Shown: positions 2,649-49,252 of the stretch, piece after piece
Position numbering within the stretch: the first letter of the stretch is position 1
How the letters are laid out: the number at the start of each line of letters is the position of its first letter
Source: Candidatus Saccharimonadota bacterium
GTDB taxonomy: Bacteria > Patescibacteriota > Saccharimonadia > Saccharimonadales > Saccharimonadaceae
NCBI GenBank assembly: GCA_009777625.1
Contig: WRLL01000006.1
Coordinates: forward strand, 1 to 49,252
Reading direction: 5' to 3'
Length of the DNA stretch: 49,252 nucleotides
Translations under genes and position numbers: made by a program
The notes under the pieces: model-generated
The model's database searches: none
What the model was told of the DNA's origin: nothing
Seen by the model: the letters and a program-made list of their open reading frames with translations, nothing else

Positions 2649-3347
2649 ATGCGACTATTATTAAAGCTGAGCGGAGAACAGCTAGCTGGCGACAACGCCC
2701 GCGGCTTCAACATCGAACGCGCCAAATGGATCGCTGACCAGGTCAAGAAAGCGCAGGCAACCGACGCGGAAATTGTCATTACGGTCGGGGCGGGGAACTT
2801 TGTGCGGGGCGAATACTTTGCGGGCGAAAACATTCGGCAGGTTACGGCTGACAACATGGGCATGCTGGCCATCGTTATCAACGCATTGGCGTTGGGTGAC
2901 GTGTTTAATTCGGTTGGCATTCCGGCCGCGGTGCTGTCGAACATCGAGGCCAACCAGGTAGTCGACCAGTATACTTATCGGCGGGCCTTGTCGCACCTGG
3001 CTAAGGGCCGCGTGGTTATCATCGGTGGTGGCATGGGACGGCCGTATGTGACGAGCGACTCGGCGGCGGTGTCGATGGCGCTGGAATTGGATTGCGATCT
3101 GGTCGCTAAGGCCACTAAAATCGACGGTGTCTTCGACAAAGACCCAGCTAAATTCCCGGACGCCATAAAATTGGATAAAATATCATTGGCCGACGCTGTA
3201 GCTGGCCGCGAGATCAAGGTCATGGACAAGGCAGCACTGGGACTGGCGGCGGACTTTAATATTCCGATCACAGTATTTGAATTGCTGAAGGAAGGGAATA
3301 TTGCGCGGGTTGCGGCAGGGGAAAATGTTGGTACAAGGATCAGCTAG
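2649..3347 (+). CDS. pyrH: UMP kinase
   Basis: LLLKLSGEQLAG, VGAGNFVRG, IGGGMGRPYVTSDSAA, KATKIDGVFDKDP. Confidence 0.93.
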   Translation: MRLLLKLSGEQLAGDNARGFNIERAKWIADQVKKAQATDAEIVITVGAGNFVRGEYFAGENIRQVTADNMGMLAIVINALALGDVFNSVGIPAAVLSNIEANQVVDQYTYRRALSHLAKGRVVIIGGGMGRPYVTSDSAAVSMALELDCDLVAKATKIDGVFDKDPAKFPDAIKLDKISLADAVAGREIKVMDKAALGLAADFNIPITVFELLKEGNIARVAAGENVGTRIS

Positions 3348-3418
3348 AGTAGTCGGCCAAGGCTATTTTTAGGCATAAGCATCTTTACATTTTGCGAGTT
3401 TTGTGATATAGTTTGGGC

Positions 3419-3913
3419 ATGAGTGAAATAAAAAAAGAAAACACCGACGACAAAGAAAGTAGGCCACGGGTGATGCGAGGACTCAGAAGCATGGGACAAC
3501 GAGAACCCGGTGATTCTTTGGACTCGGATACTTTTCATGGCATGATGAGTGTTACTTTTAATGCTCCTGACAGTGGCGGCGTAAAGGGAGAAGGATCTTC
3601 TGCAAACGGAAATACTAAAACAGCTGTCGAAGCAGCTACGCGAAGAGTCGCCGATACTCGCGCTGAAATTGAAGCAAGTGGAGAACAACCAACCGTTGAG
3701 GATATAGGAAGAATGGTTACAGTGGTTAACCAAAACTCTGAGGCCGCGGCAATGAGCAGCGGAGGTTTAGTGCCAGAGGCGCGTCCGGGACTCCCTTCGC
3801 AGAGACATGATGCTACAGCACTTGGTGGCGAAGATGTCGAAGACCCGTTTATAGATGCTCTCGGGGTTGTCAACGGCGTATACGATCAGATGGGTGGCCG
3901 TCGGTCTTCCTAG
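3419..3913 (+). CDS. hypothetical protein
   Basis: ORF; ATG at 3419 chosen over the TTG at 3413; -10-like GATATAGT just upstream. Confidence 0.5.
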   Translation: MSEIKKENTDDKESRPRVMRGLRSMGQREPGDSLDSDTFHGMMSVTFNAPDSGGVKGEGSSANGNTKTAVEAATRRVADTRAEIEASGEQPTVEDIGRMVTVVNQNSEAAAMSSGGLVPEARPGLPSQRHDATALGGEDVEDPFIDALGVVNGVYDQMGGRRSS

Positions 3914-32302: not shown

Positions 32303-33229
32303 ATGATTTACTTTTACTATGGTGAAAACGACTTCGCGCAAAAGGCGGCAGCCGATAAACTAATCGCAGAATTCGCGCACGAGGTCTCATTGGATGCCGT
32401 AGCTAAATTCGACACTGGCGAAACTGATTCGCAGCAGTTGATTGCCGAAATTGTCGGTATCAATCTTTTCGCGCCGCGACGGCTGATGGTGATAAAAAAT
32501 ACCGACCAAAACCGCGAGTTCTGGCACATTCTAGATGAGAATATGACGCGGATTTCTGAATCGCCAAATGACGTTTTGTTGTTGGCTGCGACACCTGACA
32601 AACGGACGAAAACTTACAAAAATCTGTTGAAAAAAGCTGAAACACGCGAGTTTGCCTTGCTGAGGCATTACGAAATTGTTAAATGGATTGCGGCAGAAAG
32701 TATGCAGCTAAACCTAAAAATCCAGCCGGACGCAGCCGAAGAATTGGCGACGACTTGCAGTGACGATCAATGGCGAATCTGGCACGAACTGGAGAAACTG
32801 GCAGCCTTGAATAGACTGGTTGATAAAAAATGTATTCAGGAATTCATTGAACCAGATATCAGCGCTAACGCATTTGAAATTTTGAACTTGGTTCTGACGG
32901 GCGATTTAGATCGGGCGCAGGATGAGTTGCAGAAATTGCGTGAAACAGGCGAGGACGCGAATAAATTCCTGGGACTTTTATCGAGCCAGGTTTTCGCATT
33001 GGCAGGAGCGATTTACGGCGGTTCAGGTTCTGATGTGGCGAAAGACTTGAAAATTCATCCGTTTCAGCTGGGAAAGATGCGTGATCTGGCGCGGGATTTG
33101 GACAGACCAAAAGAACGCGTGAAAGAGTTGGCGCAAGTTTTAGCCGAGACTGATGCGCGGATGAAGTTGTCGAATGCGGACGAGGCGTGGGCGTTGGTTG
33201 GAGTGATGCTGGGGAAGATCGGAAAGTAA
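32303..33229 (+). CDS. holA: DNA polymerase III subunit delta
   Basis: YFYYGENDFAQKAAADKL...LFAPRRLMVIKN...KIHPFQLGKMRDLA. Confidence 0.85.
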   Translation: MIYFYYGENDFAQKAAADKLIAEFAHEVSLDAVAKFDTGETDSQQLIAEIVGINLFAPRRLMVIKNTDQNREFWHILDENMTRISESPNDVLLLAATPDKRTKTYKNLLKKAETREFALLRHYEIVKWIAAESMQLNLKIQPDAAEELATTCSDDQWRIWHELEKLAALNRLVDKKCIQEFIEPDISANAFEILNLVLTGDLDRAQDELQKLRETGEDANKFLGLLSSQVFALAGAIYGGSGSDVAKDLKIHPFQLGKMRDLARDLDRPKERVKELAQVLAETDARMKLSNADEAWALVGVMLGKIGK

Positions 33230-45353: not shown

Positions 45354-46250
45354 ATGATGCTTTACGACAATATCCTAGAAACTATAGGCAACACTCCTAT
45401 GGTTAAGATCAACCACCTGAACCCGAATCCGGCAGTTCAACTCTACGCGAAACTAGAAGGCTTCAACCCGACCGGCAGCATCAAAGATCGCATCGCCCTT
45501 AAAATGATCGAACAGGCTGAAGAAGAGGGCTTGCTGACGAAGGACAAGATTATTCTTGAACCAACCTCGGGCAATACAGGGATAGCGCTGGCTATGATCG
45601 GCCGCGTCAAGGGCTACAAAGTCGAAATCGTCATGTCGTCTGCTGTTTCAGTGGAACGGCAAAAGATGATCAAGGCCTTTGGCGGGACGGTTATTTTGAC
45701 AGATGCAGACAAGGGAACCGATGGCGCGATCATGAAAGTCCGCGAGATGCTGAAGGAAAACCCCGACAAATATTTCAATCCGAATCAGTTTTCCAATAAA
45801 TATAATAAAATTTCTCACTACGAAACCACCGGCGAGGAAATTTGGGATCAAACTAATGGAAAAGTGACGCATTTTGTGTCTTCCTTAGGTACATCCGGAA
45901 CTTTGATGGGCATTACGACTTTCTTAAAAGAAAAAAATCCGGCTATCAAAATTGTCGAAGCCCACCCTGTCAAAGGCCACTACATTCAGGGCTTAAAGAA
46001 CATGCAGGAGGCGATCGTGCCGGAAATTTACGACCCGTCGATCATCGACGAAAGCATCATGGTCGAAACAGATGACGCCTACGAAATGGCGCGCCAGATC
46101 GTGGCGCAGGAAGGAATTTTCGTCGGCATGAGCAGCGGCGCGGCGATGTTTGCGACGCTGGAGATCGTGGAGAGATTGGATTCCGGTGTGGTCGTGGTGA
46201 TCTTCCCAGATCGCGGGGAGAAGTATTTGAGCACGGAATTATTTGGGTAG
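45354..46250 (+). CDS. cysK: cysteine synthase (O-acetylserine sulfhydrylase)
   Basis: YDNILETIGNTPMVKINHLNP, KLEGFNPTGSIKDRIA, PTSGNTGIALAM, GTSGTLMG; SD ggggaga. Confidence 0.92.
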   Translation: MMLYDNILETIGNTPMVKINHLNPNPAVQLYAKLEGFNPTGSIKDRIALKMIEQAEEEGLLTKDKIILEPTSGNTGIALAMIGRVKGYKVEIVMSSAVSVERQKMIKAFGGTVILTDADKGTDGAIMKVREMLKENPDKYFNPNQFSNKYNKISHYETTGEEIWDQTNGKVTHFVSSLGTSGTLMGITTFLKEKNPAIKIVEAHPVKGHYIQGLKNMQEAIVPEIYDPSIIDESIMVETDDAYEMARQIVAQEGIFVGMSSGAAMFATLEIVERLDSGVVVVIFPDRGEKYLSTELFG

Positions 46251-46307
46251 ACGCATTTATCCTCTGTGCTGTGACGTAAAAATATACAACATACATAGTT
46301 TAGCTAC

Positions 46308-46336
46308 TTGTCAATTTACCAATTGTATGGTAATAT
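46308..46336 (+). promoter_or_regulatory. Promoter with internal operator for the radical SAM leader
   Basis: TTGTCA 46308-46313, 17-bp spacer, TAATAT 46331-46336; IR TTACCA(N6)TGGTAA at 46316-46333. Confidence 0.7.
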
Positions 46337-46342
46337 CAAGTT

Positions 46343-46467
46343 GCTAAACCTATAACAACTAGGCAAGCCAAACTAGGCTTTCAGTCCGATAATGCGATCA
46401 TATGCACCATCGAAGGCTGAAAGCTCTAGTTGGTAGGTTTAGCGACTAGCATATGGTCGCTTTTTTG
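46343..46467 (+). ncRNA. Candidate cis-regulatory attenuator leader RNA (L1)
   Basis: P1 GCTAAACCTA/TAGGTTTAGC; hairpin AACTAGgCTTTCAG/CTGAAAGctCTAGTT; terminator AGCGAC-N9-GTCGCTTTTTT; loop GCGATCATATGC complementary to GCATATGGTCGC. Confidence 0.7.
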
Positions 46468-46525
46468 TTTGCTATGGCATAAGTACAATATTGCGGTCTT
46501 AACGGTGGGAGAGGGCTGTGCTGAT

Positions 46526-47692
46526 ATGAGCAGAAATCTTATTAAAGATAACGGGAGCTTTATCCAGCTTGCAGATCAAATGCGATGGGAGTCGCTTTCG
46601 CCTGCAGCTGCGGAATTAGTTGAATTAGAGAAAGAAATCCCTGTAAGAATAGAAGAAGATCGCGGCTTGCGAGCCAAAATTACTGACAAGTGCGGAATGA
46701 CATGCACATTTTGCCATAACGAGGGGACGCCTGTGGCAGTGGCGCTAAGAGGCATTACTACTCAGCGTAGCTCTGTTTTTTCTGGGATTAATGGAGTTGA
46801 CTTTATGCCAGGGCAGATGCAGCCTGATGAATCATTCAGATACGCATTGTCATCAATGAGACGAAGTATTGGCTCAGATGAACTACATTTTACTGGTGGT
46901 GAGCCAAGCTTACATAGAGGTATTGCTGAATTGACTGAGCAGGCTGTGTCGCTAGGCTATCAAGTCAAAATGACGTCGAATGGTGAAAATCCGGGTGGGA
47001 TAGGAAGGGCGGTGGAGGCAGGAGTCTCAAAGATTAATTTTAGTGTTTTTGGTACAACCCCAGAGGAACTAGCCCAAGTTCAGGCGGAAAAATATCGTAA
47101 CGAGCGCCTAGCGGCGCATAAAATAATACGACTAAAAGAATCTATGAAAATAGCCTTAGATTCTGGAGTTAAAGCTGGTGCGAATATTGTCATGAGAGAT
47201 ATTGGTGATGCAGAAAGGGCTATGCGTATTCTATTCGAATATGATCCGCGTCTTCAGATGCGTATTCTGCACGATCTTGATAAAGGGCTTGAATCATACA
47301 AGGCGGCTTATGAATTGTTGGCAACACTCGGTGCAAAGCCAGAAGAACTATTAATAGAAGCCGGTGTTTCTAATGTGGGCGTAAAGTATAGACTGCCAGA
47401 CGGTAGGGTAATCCAATTTAAACAATTCAAACAAACATTTCTACCAGACACATGCAGAGGCTGCTCGATAAAAAGCGATGGCGGTTGTTACGAATCTTTT
47501 TATGGGCCGCGTTTGTATGTTGATGATTCTGGGCAATATAAAGTTGGCGTATGTATCCAGAGGATGGATTTAACCGAAGACCTAGAGGGATTCTGTGAAG
47601 GTGCAATTCCTAAAGAGATTGTCAGGCTCAGAAGAGAGGAGTATGAGAGCCTAAGAGAAGAATTTGGAGACCGAATTAAGGATAGGCCATGA
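46526..47692 (+). CDS. radical SAM protein (MoaA-like, with extra C-terminal Cys cluster)
   Basis: KCGMTCTFCHNEG (CxxxCxxC), FTGGEPSLH, C-terminal CRGCSIKSDGGCYE...VGVCIQR; start moved from TTG 46430, which lies in the leader. Confidence 0.82.
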   Translation: MSRNLIKDNGSFIQLADQMRWESLSPAAAELVELEKEIPVRIEEDRGLRAKITDKCGMTCTFCHNEGTPVAVALRGITTQRSSVFSGINGVDFMPGQMQPDESFRYALSSMRRSIGSDELHFTGGEPSLHRGIAELTEQAVSLGYQVKMTSNGENPGGIGRAVEAGVSKINFSVFGTTPEELAQVQAEKYRNERLAAHKIIRLKESMKIALDSGVKAGANIVMRDIGDAERAMRILFEYDPRLQMRILHDLDKGLESYKAAYELLATLGAKPEELLIEAGVSNVGVKYRLPDGRVIQFKQFKQTFLPDTCRGCSIKSDGGCYESFYGPRLYVDDSGQYKVGVCIQRMDLTEDLEGFCEGAIPKEIVRLRREEYESLREEFGDRIKDRP

Positions 47693-48234
47693 ATGATGCT
47701 ATAGAGAACGAAGCGAAGATACTAAATATTGGCCCAGAAGAAATAAGGGGCAAATTAATACGACTGGGTGCGCAAAAAGTTGGAGAATTTAACTTCAGGC
47801 GACACGTTTTCGATGCTATCCCAAAACGGGAAGGTCGATGGCTTAGGCTAAGGACTGATGGTCAACGCACAACTATAACGGCAAAAGAGATCTCTCATGA
47901 TGATGTGGATGGTACAAGCGAATGGGAAGTTGAGGTGTCTGATTTTGAGGACACTTTGAAAATTTTACAAAAAATTGGCTTGGAGAGTCGAGGCTATCAA
48001 GAGAACAGGCGAGAGCTGTACAAGTTAAACGATGTTGAGATCTCAATAGATTTCTGGCCACGATTAAAACCGTATATTGAAATTGAAGCCAAGACTCCAG
48101 AACAAGTGTATGAGACCGCTCGGCAACTGGGATTTAATGCTGGCCAGCTGACTGGGAAAAACACAAAGAAACTGTATGCTGAATCAGGAATTGATCTGGA
48201 CAAAGTTGCTGAACTTAATTTTGATGGTCTGTAG
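47689..48234 (+). CDS. CYTH-domain (triphosphate tunnel) protein
   Basis: IENEAKILNI (ExExK), LRLRTDGQRTTITAKE, SEWEVEVSDFE, YIEIEAKTPEQVYE; overlaps previous stop. Confidence 0.8.
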   Translation: MNDAIENEAKILNIGPEEIRGKLIRLGAQKVGEFNFRRHVFDAIPKREGRWLRLRTDGQRTTITAKEISHDDVDGTSEWEVEVSDFEDTLKILQKIGLESRGYQENRRELYKLNDVEISIDFWPRLKPYIEIEAKTPEQVYETARQLGFNAGQLTGKNTKKLYAESGIDLDKVAELNFDGL

Positions 48235-48798
48235 ATGAAAATAGACAGACCATCGTTTATGATCACCGGTGCGAGTGCGTCTGGAAAGACGACTCTTGGC
48301 AATATGGCGTTAAATAATGGATGGCGATGTGCGTCTGTGCACTTGACGCGCCCCAAGCGTCCAGATGAGATAGAAGGCGTGCACGGTGTTTTTCTTACGG
48401 AAGAACAATTTGTTGCTAATTTTGCACAAGGCGCCTATATCGAAACCAGTCTCCAGGATACATTATTGCAGCCTATCGGATATTATTATGGGACACCTAA
48501 ATCAATGCTGTATGATTTACGCCAGGACGGCGTATGTGCGATACCTACCTGTGTCAAAATGGCTAGGAAGGTATTTGAAATAATAGATGAAGTCGTATGG
48601 GTCCATTTAATATGTAGTGATGTGGACAGGCGCGCGAGATTAGTCGCACGCAATATCACTGGTGATGAAATTGAAGCTAGAATGACGATGGGTGAGTCTA
48701 GTGATTCTCCTCCGGGAGATGCGACTATTTATAGTACGTCTGATCTATCTGCCGATGATATTCTGCGTGATATTCGAGCCAATTGCGTAAGTGCATAA
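48235..48798 (+). CDS. guanylate-kinase-like P-loop kinase
   Basis: ITGASASGKTTLGNMAL, HLTRPKRPDEIEGVHGVFLTEEQFVANFAQGAYIE, YYYGTPKSMLYDLRQDGVCAI. Confidence 0.75.
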   Translation: MKIDRPSFMITGASASGKTTLGNMALNNGWRCASVHLTRPKRPDEIEGVHGVFLTEEQFVANFAQGAYIETSLQDTLLQPIGYYYGTPKSMLYDLRQDGVCAIPTCVKMARKVFEIIDEVVWVHLICSDVDRRARLVARNITGDEIEARMTMGESSDSPPGDATIYSTSDLSADDILRDIRANCVSA

Positions 48799-48839
48799 TG
48801 CACCTCTGGTTAAGGGTAGAAATCTAGCGGCGACTATGC

Positions 48840-48931
48840 TATAATAAGAAAGCTAAACCTACTAAACGGAGTGTTATATTTCTGTAATATCGTGCATGTA
48901 GCTTTAGCGACTAGAACTAGTCGCTTTTCTT
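48840..48931 (+). ncRNA. Second related leader RNA (L2) ending in a terminator
   Basis: TATAAT 48840-48845; GCTAAAcCTAC/GTAGcTTTAGC; perfect hairpin AGCGACTAGAACTAGTCGCTTTTCTTG. Confidence 0.65.
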
Positions 48932-48976
48932 GTTTTGACCAAGTAGCGACCTAACGGGTGGCGAAAGGGAGATACT

Positions 48977-49252
48977 ATGAGTGCAGATATACCAAGGCAG
49001 GCGTTGCCGTTTGAGTTAGATGGTGCCAGGAGCAAAATGTCTGGATATACCGAGAAAATTGGCGAACTTGCAAGCGAATTAGGTAGGGCTATGAGAACGA
49101 CTTCAGAAACTTGGCATGATAATGTACAGGCTGATGCTGTAGTCGCGGACTCAAGTGTAGTAGCAAGCTCCGCAGAATTTACAGCTGACCGTCTTGCTGG
49201 TTCAATAGAGGCCTCTGATTCTCTGGATGGTGTCGTGGGTGTCGGAAGTATT
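48977..49252 (+). CDS. hypothetical protein, N-terminal part (runs off right edge; absent from ORF track)
   Basis: SD-like aaagggaga then ATG; MSADIPRQALPFELDGARSKMSGYTEKIGELASELGRAMRTT… open for 92 codons. Confidence 0.65.
   Translation, partial: MSADIPRQALPFELDGARSKMSGYTEKIGELASELGRAMRTTSETWHDNVQADAVVADSSVVASSAEFTADRLAGSIEASDSLDGVVGVGSI

Follow-up and report, generated by a model that had tools for sequence, protein, structure and literature searches.

The window analysed here covers contig 6 (49,252 bases) from end to end; the source genome is incomplete (0.90 Mb, 83.5%). It contains two related leader sequences. L1 probably attenuates transcription in cis and belongs to an undescribed RNA family, and L2 is a shortened relative. 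The strongest feature, missed in an earlier note on this DNA, is a 12-bp complementarity between positions 46394-46405 and 46449-46460 of L1. It is practically certain that the leader represents a real RNA family, and very probably it acts as a conditional attenuator. The family is restricted to one Saccharibacteria family, where it has about 100 copies, and is absent from Rfam 15.

Two leaders in the window

L1 is composed of a closing helix (P1), a bulge, an upper helix, an apical element and a terminator (Table 1). Analysis of the sequence showed a layout in which the putative RNA start is the first base, an intrinsic terminator directly adjoins the predicted rod, and the terminator 3′ strand can pair with the apical element. 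All 12 of 12 positions of the apical element form standard pairs with this strand, which consists of the terminator loop plus the 3′ arm, and in 300 shuffles of the L1 interior no pairing as good arose. The fold of L1 had an energy of -49.5 kcal/mol, compared with -29.3 for shuffles (z -5.8), and its terminator hairpin of -10.7 kcal/mol has the stem AGCGAC...GUCGCU followed by six U in all.

The shared ends of the two leaders, described in the earlier note, were verified: GCTAAACCTA is present at both 46343 (L1) and 48852 (L2), and TTTAGCGACTAG, leading into the GTCGCTTTT terminator, at 46438 (L1) and 48903 (L2). The block said to follow both terminators is indeed common to them, but it is gapped (GCGGTCTTAACGGTGGGAGAGG in L1, GCGACCTAACGGGTGGCGAAAGGGAGA in L2); both versions lead to ATGAG. 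L2 itself was confirmed as a leader, but not its proposed beginning at 48840, as its RNA should start at 48852 and positions 48840-48845 are its -10 box. A third exact copy of GCTAAACCTA, at 32707, was rejected as a leader; it lies within a coding sequence and its folding is not unusual.

The P1 helix of L2 consists of GCUAAA..UUUAGC plus CUAC/GUAG with one internal mismatch, and a good terminator is present (48907-48928, -10.4 kcal/mol), while the folding is only mildly better than that of shuffles (z -1.9). The apical element is absent from L2, as pairing of the interior with its own terminator 3′ strand yielded -2.9 versus a shuffle mean of -4.8 kcal/mol. The idea that the differing interiors are different sensor modules on one platform found no support: the family interior has a single conserved architecture, in which the helix sequences vary freely and the apical element is conserved, and L2 is merely a shortened copy without this element. 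It may be decaying. A regulon continuing beyond the right edge had also been suggested and is likewise unsupported; the contig stops at 49252, and the genome (83.5% complete) has only L1 and L2. A search of its 0.90 Mb with the terminator-side pattern gave exactly these two matches, and the reversed-pattern control gave none.

Table 1. Coordinates of the leaders, their parts and the adjoining genes in the window
Feature	Position	Strand	Remarks
Promoter of L1	46308..46336	+	-35 TTGTCA 46308-46313, 17-nt spacer, -10 TAATAT 46331-46336; expected RNA start 46343
L1, full-length leader RNA	46343..46467	+	CM R1 match, 86.3 bits; one of 14 seed members
P1 5′ strand GCUAAACCUA	46343..46352	+	pairs with 46434-46443
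Apical element GCGAUCAUAUGC	46394..46405	+	sits in apical loop/hairpin of rod
P1 3′ strand UAGGUUUAGC	46434..46443	+	last bases AGC double as start of terminator 5′ arm
Intrinsic terminator of L1	46442..46466	+	5′ arm GCGAC 46442-46446, 3′ strand GCAUAUGGUCGC 46449-46460, U tract 46461-46466
GCGGUC copy between L1 terminator and gene	46493..46498	+	complementary to terminator 3′ strand GGUCGC
Radical SAM protein, 388 aa, first gene behind L1	46526..47692	+	PF04055, E 1.9e-12
CYTH-domain protein (CyaB/triphosphatase-like)	47689..48234	+	PF01928, E 3.1e-12
Guanylate-kinase-like protein	48235..48798	+	PF00625, E 3e-6
-10 box TATAAT of L2 promoter	48840..48845	+	6 nt to 48852, commonest spacing in family
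L2, shortened leader	48852..48931	+	CM match, 31.2 bits, E 4e-5
GCGACC copy between L2 terminator and gene	48946..48951	+	sequence
Gene behind L2, cut by contig end	48977..49252	+	LPFE and SETWHDN blocks shared with 199-aa G094 protein, by eye

Distribution and covariation of the leader family

A covariance model (CM R1), built on 14 members and containing no apical pairs, was run on 394 genomes of the same Saccharibacteria family and gave 101 matches, distributed over 61 genomes with up to four in each. This supports the earlier view that L1 and L2 are relatives sharing one terminator platform, and the further copies and conservation in related genomes, without which the note would have given up its reading, are present. 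In an order-wide sample 33 of 392 genomes were matched, and in a phylum-wide sample 3 of 286; from this distribution across the three samples the family is lineage-restricted, patchy and multi-copy. Copies were found in 14 of 61 genera searched, single-copy genomes being common and several genomes having two to four.

The family was also recovered independently of the model. A pattern of P1 ends and terminator only retrieved seven further members in 295 same-family genomes, and all seven carry the apical element, although it was absent from the query. A pattern that included the apical element matched 13 stretches in 84,980 species genomes, 12 of them in Saccharibacteria-type MAGs or genomes and one false. 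The named carriers are Saccharibacteria, e.g. Candidatus Nanosyncoccus alces (L062; the same member as G213), and some carrier MAGs were deposited as 'Nomurabacteria'. The common anatomy comprises a -10 box 6-7 nt upstream, the start GCUAAA, the closing helix P1, a one-sided 5′ bulge, the upper helix, the apical loop GCGRYCAUAU and the terminator, the 5′ arm of which shares 2-3 bases with P1.

No convincing leader was found with the covariance model outside the Saccharibacteria family in the order- and phylum-wide samples. The matches in G079, G440 and G616 (E 4e-6 to 1e-3) are weak and without member anatomy, that in G440 being just an ordinary terminator with similar letters. A Caryophanon match lacks both the P1 5′ strand and a -10 box at the site (L056), most matches to a P1-only pattern lack the apical element (G003:C36 and others), and reverse-strand matches of the model (L084, L090, L155 and others) are weak echoes of the near-palindromic rod. 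Viral contigs yielded no leader with two strict patterns. With membership defined as a covariance-model score at or above gathering, Rfam 15 had no match in the window or in seven loci with family members, and none at E<=1 for 46250-49000. A literature search, which covered few subscription papers, found no description of the family. Integron attC sites carry the end motif RYYYAAC/GTTRRRY; an attC-like site was rejected, as the end motif of the leader is unlike it and a promoter and a terminator flank the leader.

The conservation of the helices was analysed with an alignment of 97 members (A3), which was built by the model without apical pairs. In P1 (10 pairs) and the helix between apical element and terminator 3′ strand (12 pairs), 99.0% of the 2102 cells are paired; both sides have changed in 358 cells, and 15 of the 22 pairs have such changes. 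These values were reached by 0 of 500 shuffles, and moving the partner by 1-3 columns reduced pairing to 27-47%. P1 alone is 99.4% paired in 96 distinct sequences, with compensatory changes in 8 of its 10 pairs, while the apical helix is 98.6% paired family-wide and 7 of its 12 pairs covary. The apical helix was 97.6% paired already in a MAFFT alignment of 14 members, which had not been fitted to structure, and on a tree from which those columns had been left out, up to 28 changes of state were counted at a single pair. The terminator arm is paired in 96.5% of cells family-wide, with few compensations, because the same bases are also bound to P1. As the pairing of both the apical helix and the terminator arm has been kept, both folds of the terminator 3′ strand are apparently under selection. 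P1, terminator and apical pairing explain nearly all conserved columns, and a tendency to a U-rich bulge is the sole other trace. Among the apical positions, A at column 94 and U at column 97 hardly vary.

Promoters, output signals and genes behind the leaders

Of 99 members, 91 have a -10 box within one mismatch of TATAAT ahead of the first G (15.5 expected by shuffling); in 90 of those 91 the distance is 6 or 7 nt, and the position places the RNA start at leader base 1. The start codon follows at a median of 32 nt after the leader, and an SD-like motif was found in 93 of 98 cases, the motif having also been weighed in the choice of the start codon. Within 60 nt after the leader, 59 of 96 members have a copy of GCGRY complementary to the terminator 3′ strand (10.3 expected), at a median position of 8 and often directly before the ribosome site. 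Stabilizing the read-through form or tuning translation may be the roles of this copy.

The radical SAM protein behind L1 is MoaA/NrdG-like and scores far below every equivalog cut-off. Its only close relative was found in G094 (52%), and by eye there is no leader at that locus, so that the leader is not tied to this gene. The product of the truncated gene behind L2 resembles, by eye, the N-terminus of the 199-aa protein of G094, which has a GreA/GreB-like C-terminal domain (E 7.5e-5, below the Pfam cut-off). In this distant genome the radical SAM and CYTH genes adjoin each other and a GreA-like gene (L005). The rare set at 46526-48798 (radical SAM, CYTH, guanylate-kinase-like, GreA-like-tailed) looks like a small nucleotide-related pathway.

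Across genomes, the genes behind the leaders are diverse and accessory. The 93 downstream proteins fall into 53 clusters, a mixture too broad for a classical metabolic regulon, for a single pathway, or for the common ligand pathway of a metabolite riboswitch. Among 74 scanned proteins were four N6/N4 DNA methyltransferases, three EcoRI-type methyltransferases, an MmeI-type and an SRA-domain protein, as well as GIY-YIG proteins, T4SS-pilin-like proteins, a glycosyltransferase and a TM2 protein; oxidoreductase and surface proteins also occur behind leaders. Many others start with a hydrophobic, signal-like or membrane segment, and many have no recognised family. Methyltransferases look over-represented (about 8 of 74) in a rough comparison, against a background of EcoRI-type enzymes above cut-off in 37 of 295 genomes and of any N6/N4 type above cut-off, including many partial matches, in 41 of 61 genomes. 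The leader is optional for the gene type, as only 2 of 30 EcoRI-type methyltransferase loci have one.

Several loci gave further observations. Behind the leader at 1167 of L042 lies a cluster that by eye resembles RibA (GTP cyclohydrolase II), PyrF (orotidine-phosphate decarboxylase) and a second guanylate-kinase-like protein; a link to the window through the guanylate-kinase gene was rejected, as BLASTP found no similarity. In L048 (G052; 2667-3728 and beyond) a Cas1 gene and a large neighbouring ORF, possibly a CRISPR-Cas locus, lie about 3-6 kb downstream of the leader. A protein family of six members (L082, L086, L094, L096, L117, L124) is always encoded behind a leader starting GCUUAA or GCUUUAA; the L094 member matches a C-terminal GIY-YIG nuclease domain, and the family are candidate restriction-like enzymes. 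Another protein cluster recurs behind leaders of genus g2 (L105, L106, L108, L112, L128, L146, L151 and others), with a VPEGVRD/LPEGVRD motif in several members and no Pfam match in the two members tested.

A proposed switch and its alternatives

The leaders have the hallmarks of an attenuator, i.e. a promoter, a structured leader, a GC-rich hairpin with U tract followed by an ORF on the same strand, and a conserved alternative helix, that of apical element and terminator 3′ strand, which excludes the terminator. In predicted folds a median of 17 bp lies below the bulge (P1 plus lower helix) and 17 bp above it, and the bulge is one-sided, with a median asymmetry of 12 nt on the 5′ side, mostly nothing opposite, and often rich in U. 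The lengths below and above the bulge trade off (r -0.67), in part from ambiguous bulge choice in some folds. Only 3-9 nt link P1 to the strand that pairs with the apical element. Judged from the arm lengths and this short linker, a rod of about 34 bp would have to bend for its tip to touch its own base, and a hinge at the bulge would allow this. In many members (e.g. L098, L099, L100, L125) a U-run bulge lies beside an A/U-rich helix (ACAAUU/AAUUGU) and could form U-A-U triples at the hinge.

In the proposed mechanism the rod would bend at the bulge, returning the apical loop to its own base, where it would capture the terminator 3′ strand in a pseudoknot of 12 bp while P1 stays closed. The pseudoknot would exclude the terminator hairpin, and transcription would go on (ON). 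When the loop is unavailable, P1 would fray by 2-3 bp, the terminator would form and an RNA of about 120 nt would be released (OFF). Which of the two states prevails would depend on a signal in the cell, probably transcription kinetics or a bound factor. By rough energies, the terminator-hairpin state has a mean of -2.5 kcal/mol and the pseudoknot state one of -10.2 before penalty, or of -3.2 and -0.6 with an assumed penalty of 7 and 9.6 kcal/mol, respectively. The two states would thus lie roughly within a few kcal/mol, as expected of a switch, the pseudoknot value hanging on the assumed penalty. Under this mechanism L2 should be a fixed attenuator, or one responsive through P1 alone.

The pseudoknot is probably the read-through state, as judged by the general trade-off logic of terminators and antiterminators (PMC2258182; PMC7430163). 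Two points speak against this assignment: there is little time for capture when the 3′ rather than the 5′ terminator arm is taken, and a 12-bp duplex reaching right up to the U tract could favour termination by itself. The opposite assignment would make this duplex the termination-competent form, replacing a weak local hairpin, with the local hairpin or the P1 overlap as the by-pass. The duplex is indeed the stronger one (mean -17.2 versus about -8 to -9 kcal/mol), and the apical pairing persists in L042, L093 and L156, whose local arms contain mismatches. Nevertheless, this assignment is unlikely, because the local arm pairing, so widely kept, would then be needless, and long-range RNA partners form slowly inside the polymerase exit channel.

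Pairing might also occur in trans, terminated leaders acting as small regulatory RNAs: their apical loops would attach to the terminator strands of other leaders, and several loci would thereby be coordinated. The similar code in all copies of one genome, the genomes with multiple copies and the poor reach of a straight rod are compatible with this, but apical and terminator sequences covary within each leader, as expected for cis, and single-copy genomes are common, so that it is decidedly improbable. Somewhat more credit, though short of an even chance, is given to a protein or small molecule that binds the apical hairpin or the U-rich bulge and stabilizes one state, as in protein-dependent antitermination or a riboswitch. 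The two near-invariant apical positions and the U-rich bulge point to it; however, no conserved unpaired core of the metabolite-riboswitch kind is apparent, and a common downstream pathway is missing. Such a factor would be the trigger for either assignment of the duplex, not an exclusive alternative. That L1 and L2 are two recent duplicates of an ordinary promoter and terminator without regulatory meaning would fit the weak folding of L2 and its missing apical element, and for L2 it could still hold. For L1 it is refuted by the covariation, and with about 100 diverged copies spread over 14 genera it is extremely improbable as a whole.

The proposed read-through switch has likenesses to known systems. 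In riboswitch attenuators the leader terminator shares bases with a P1-type helix, the folds are exclusive and the gene is directly downstream (PMC2258182). The L1-type leader has these three properties too, but it has no evident conserved ligand core, its helix sequences are free, and it has neither a common pathway nor an Rfam match. Loops of the structured domain of AdoCbl (cobalamin) riboswitches form pseudoknots with outside sequence and thereby control expression (PMC2258182). The leader's loop likewise pairs outside the structured domain, but its partner is the terminator 3′ strand itself, over 12 bp, and the cobalamin core is absent, as judged by Rfam. Competing folds around the terminator are shared with T-box riboswitches, the leaders of which have a competing terminator and antiterminator (PMC7430163); no Rfam T-box match and no amino-acid genes downstream of the leaders were found. 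With LicT, SacY and GlcT, stabilization of a hairpin that competes with the terminator results in read-through (PMC7430163), as is proposed for the leader. There, however, the bound hairpin itself competes, whereas in the leader the overlap of P1 with the terminator is only 2-3 bases, and it is a distant loop that pairs with the 3′ strand.

It is conceivable, though on balance doubtful, that the leaders form an undescribed class of attenuator, namely a two-armed fold-back hairpin whose apical loop takes the terminator 3′ strand and which, without a metabolite aptamer, serves as an add-on switch for accessory genes. Up to three strands, i.e. the terminator 5′ arm, the apical loop and the post-terminator copy near the ribosome site, would then compete for the terminator 3′ strand. 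Usually it is the 5′ arm that is captured, and a loop that seizes the 3′ strand instead is mechanistically different. The geometry of two arms of equal length makes a precise structural prediction. A review from 2024 states that it is completely unknown how Patescibacteria govern the differentiation between cell states, and riboswitches are mentioned in it only as tools that might be used in future (PMC11665869). The family provides about 100 testable regulatory sites in one Saccharibacteria family, before DNA-modification and cell-surface genes, and the covariance model allows their annotation. If the fold-back class is real, ultrasmall epibiotic bacteria would possess a general add-on switch for genes of restriction-modification, the cell surface and secretion.
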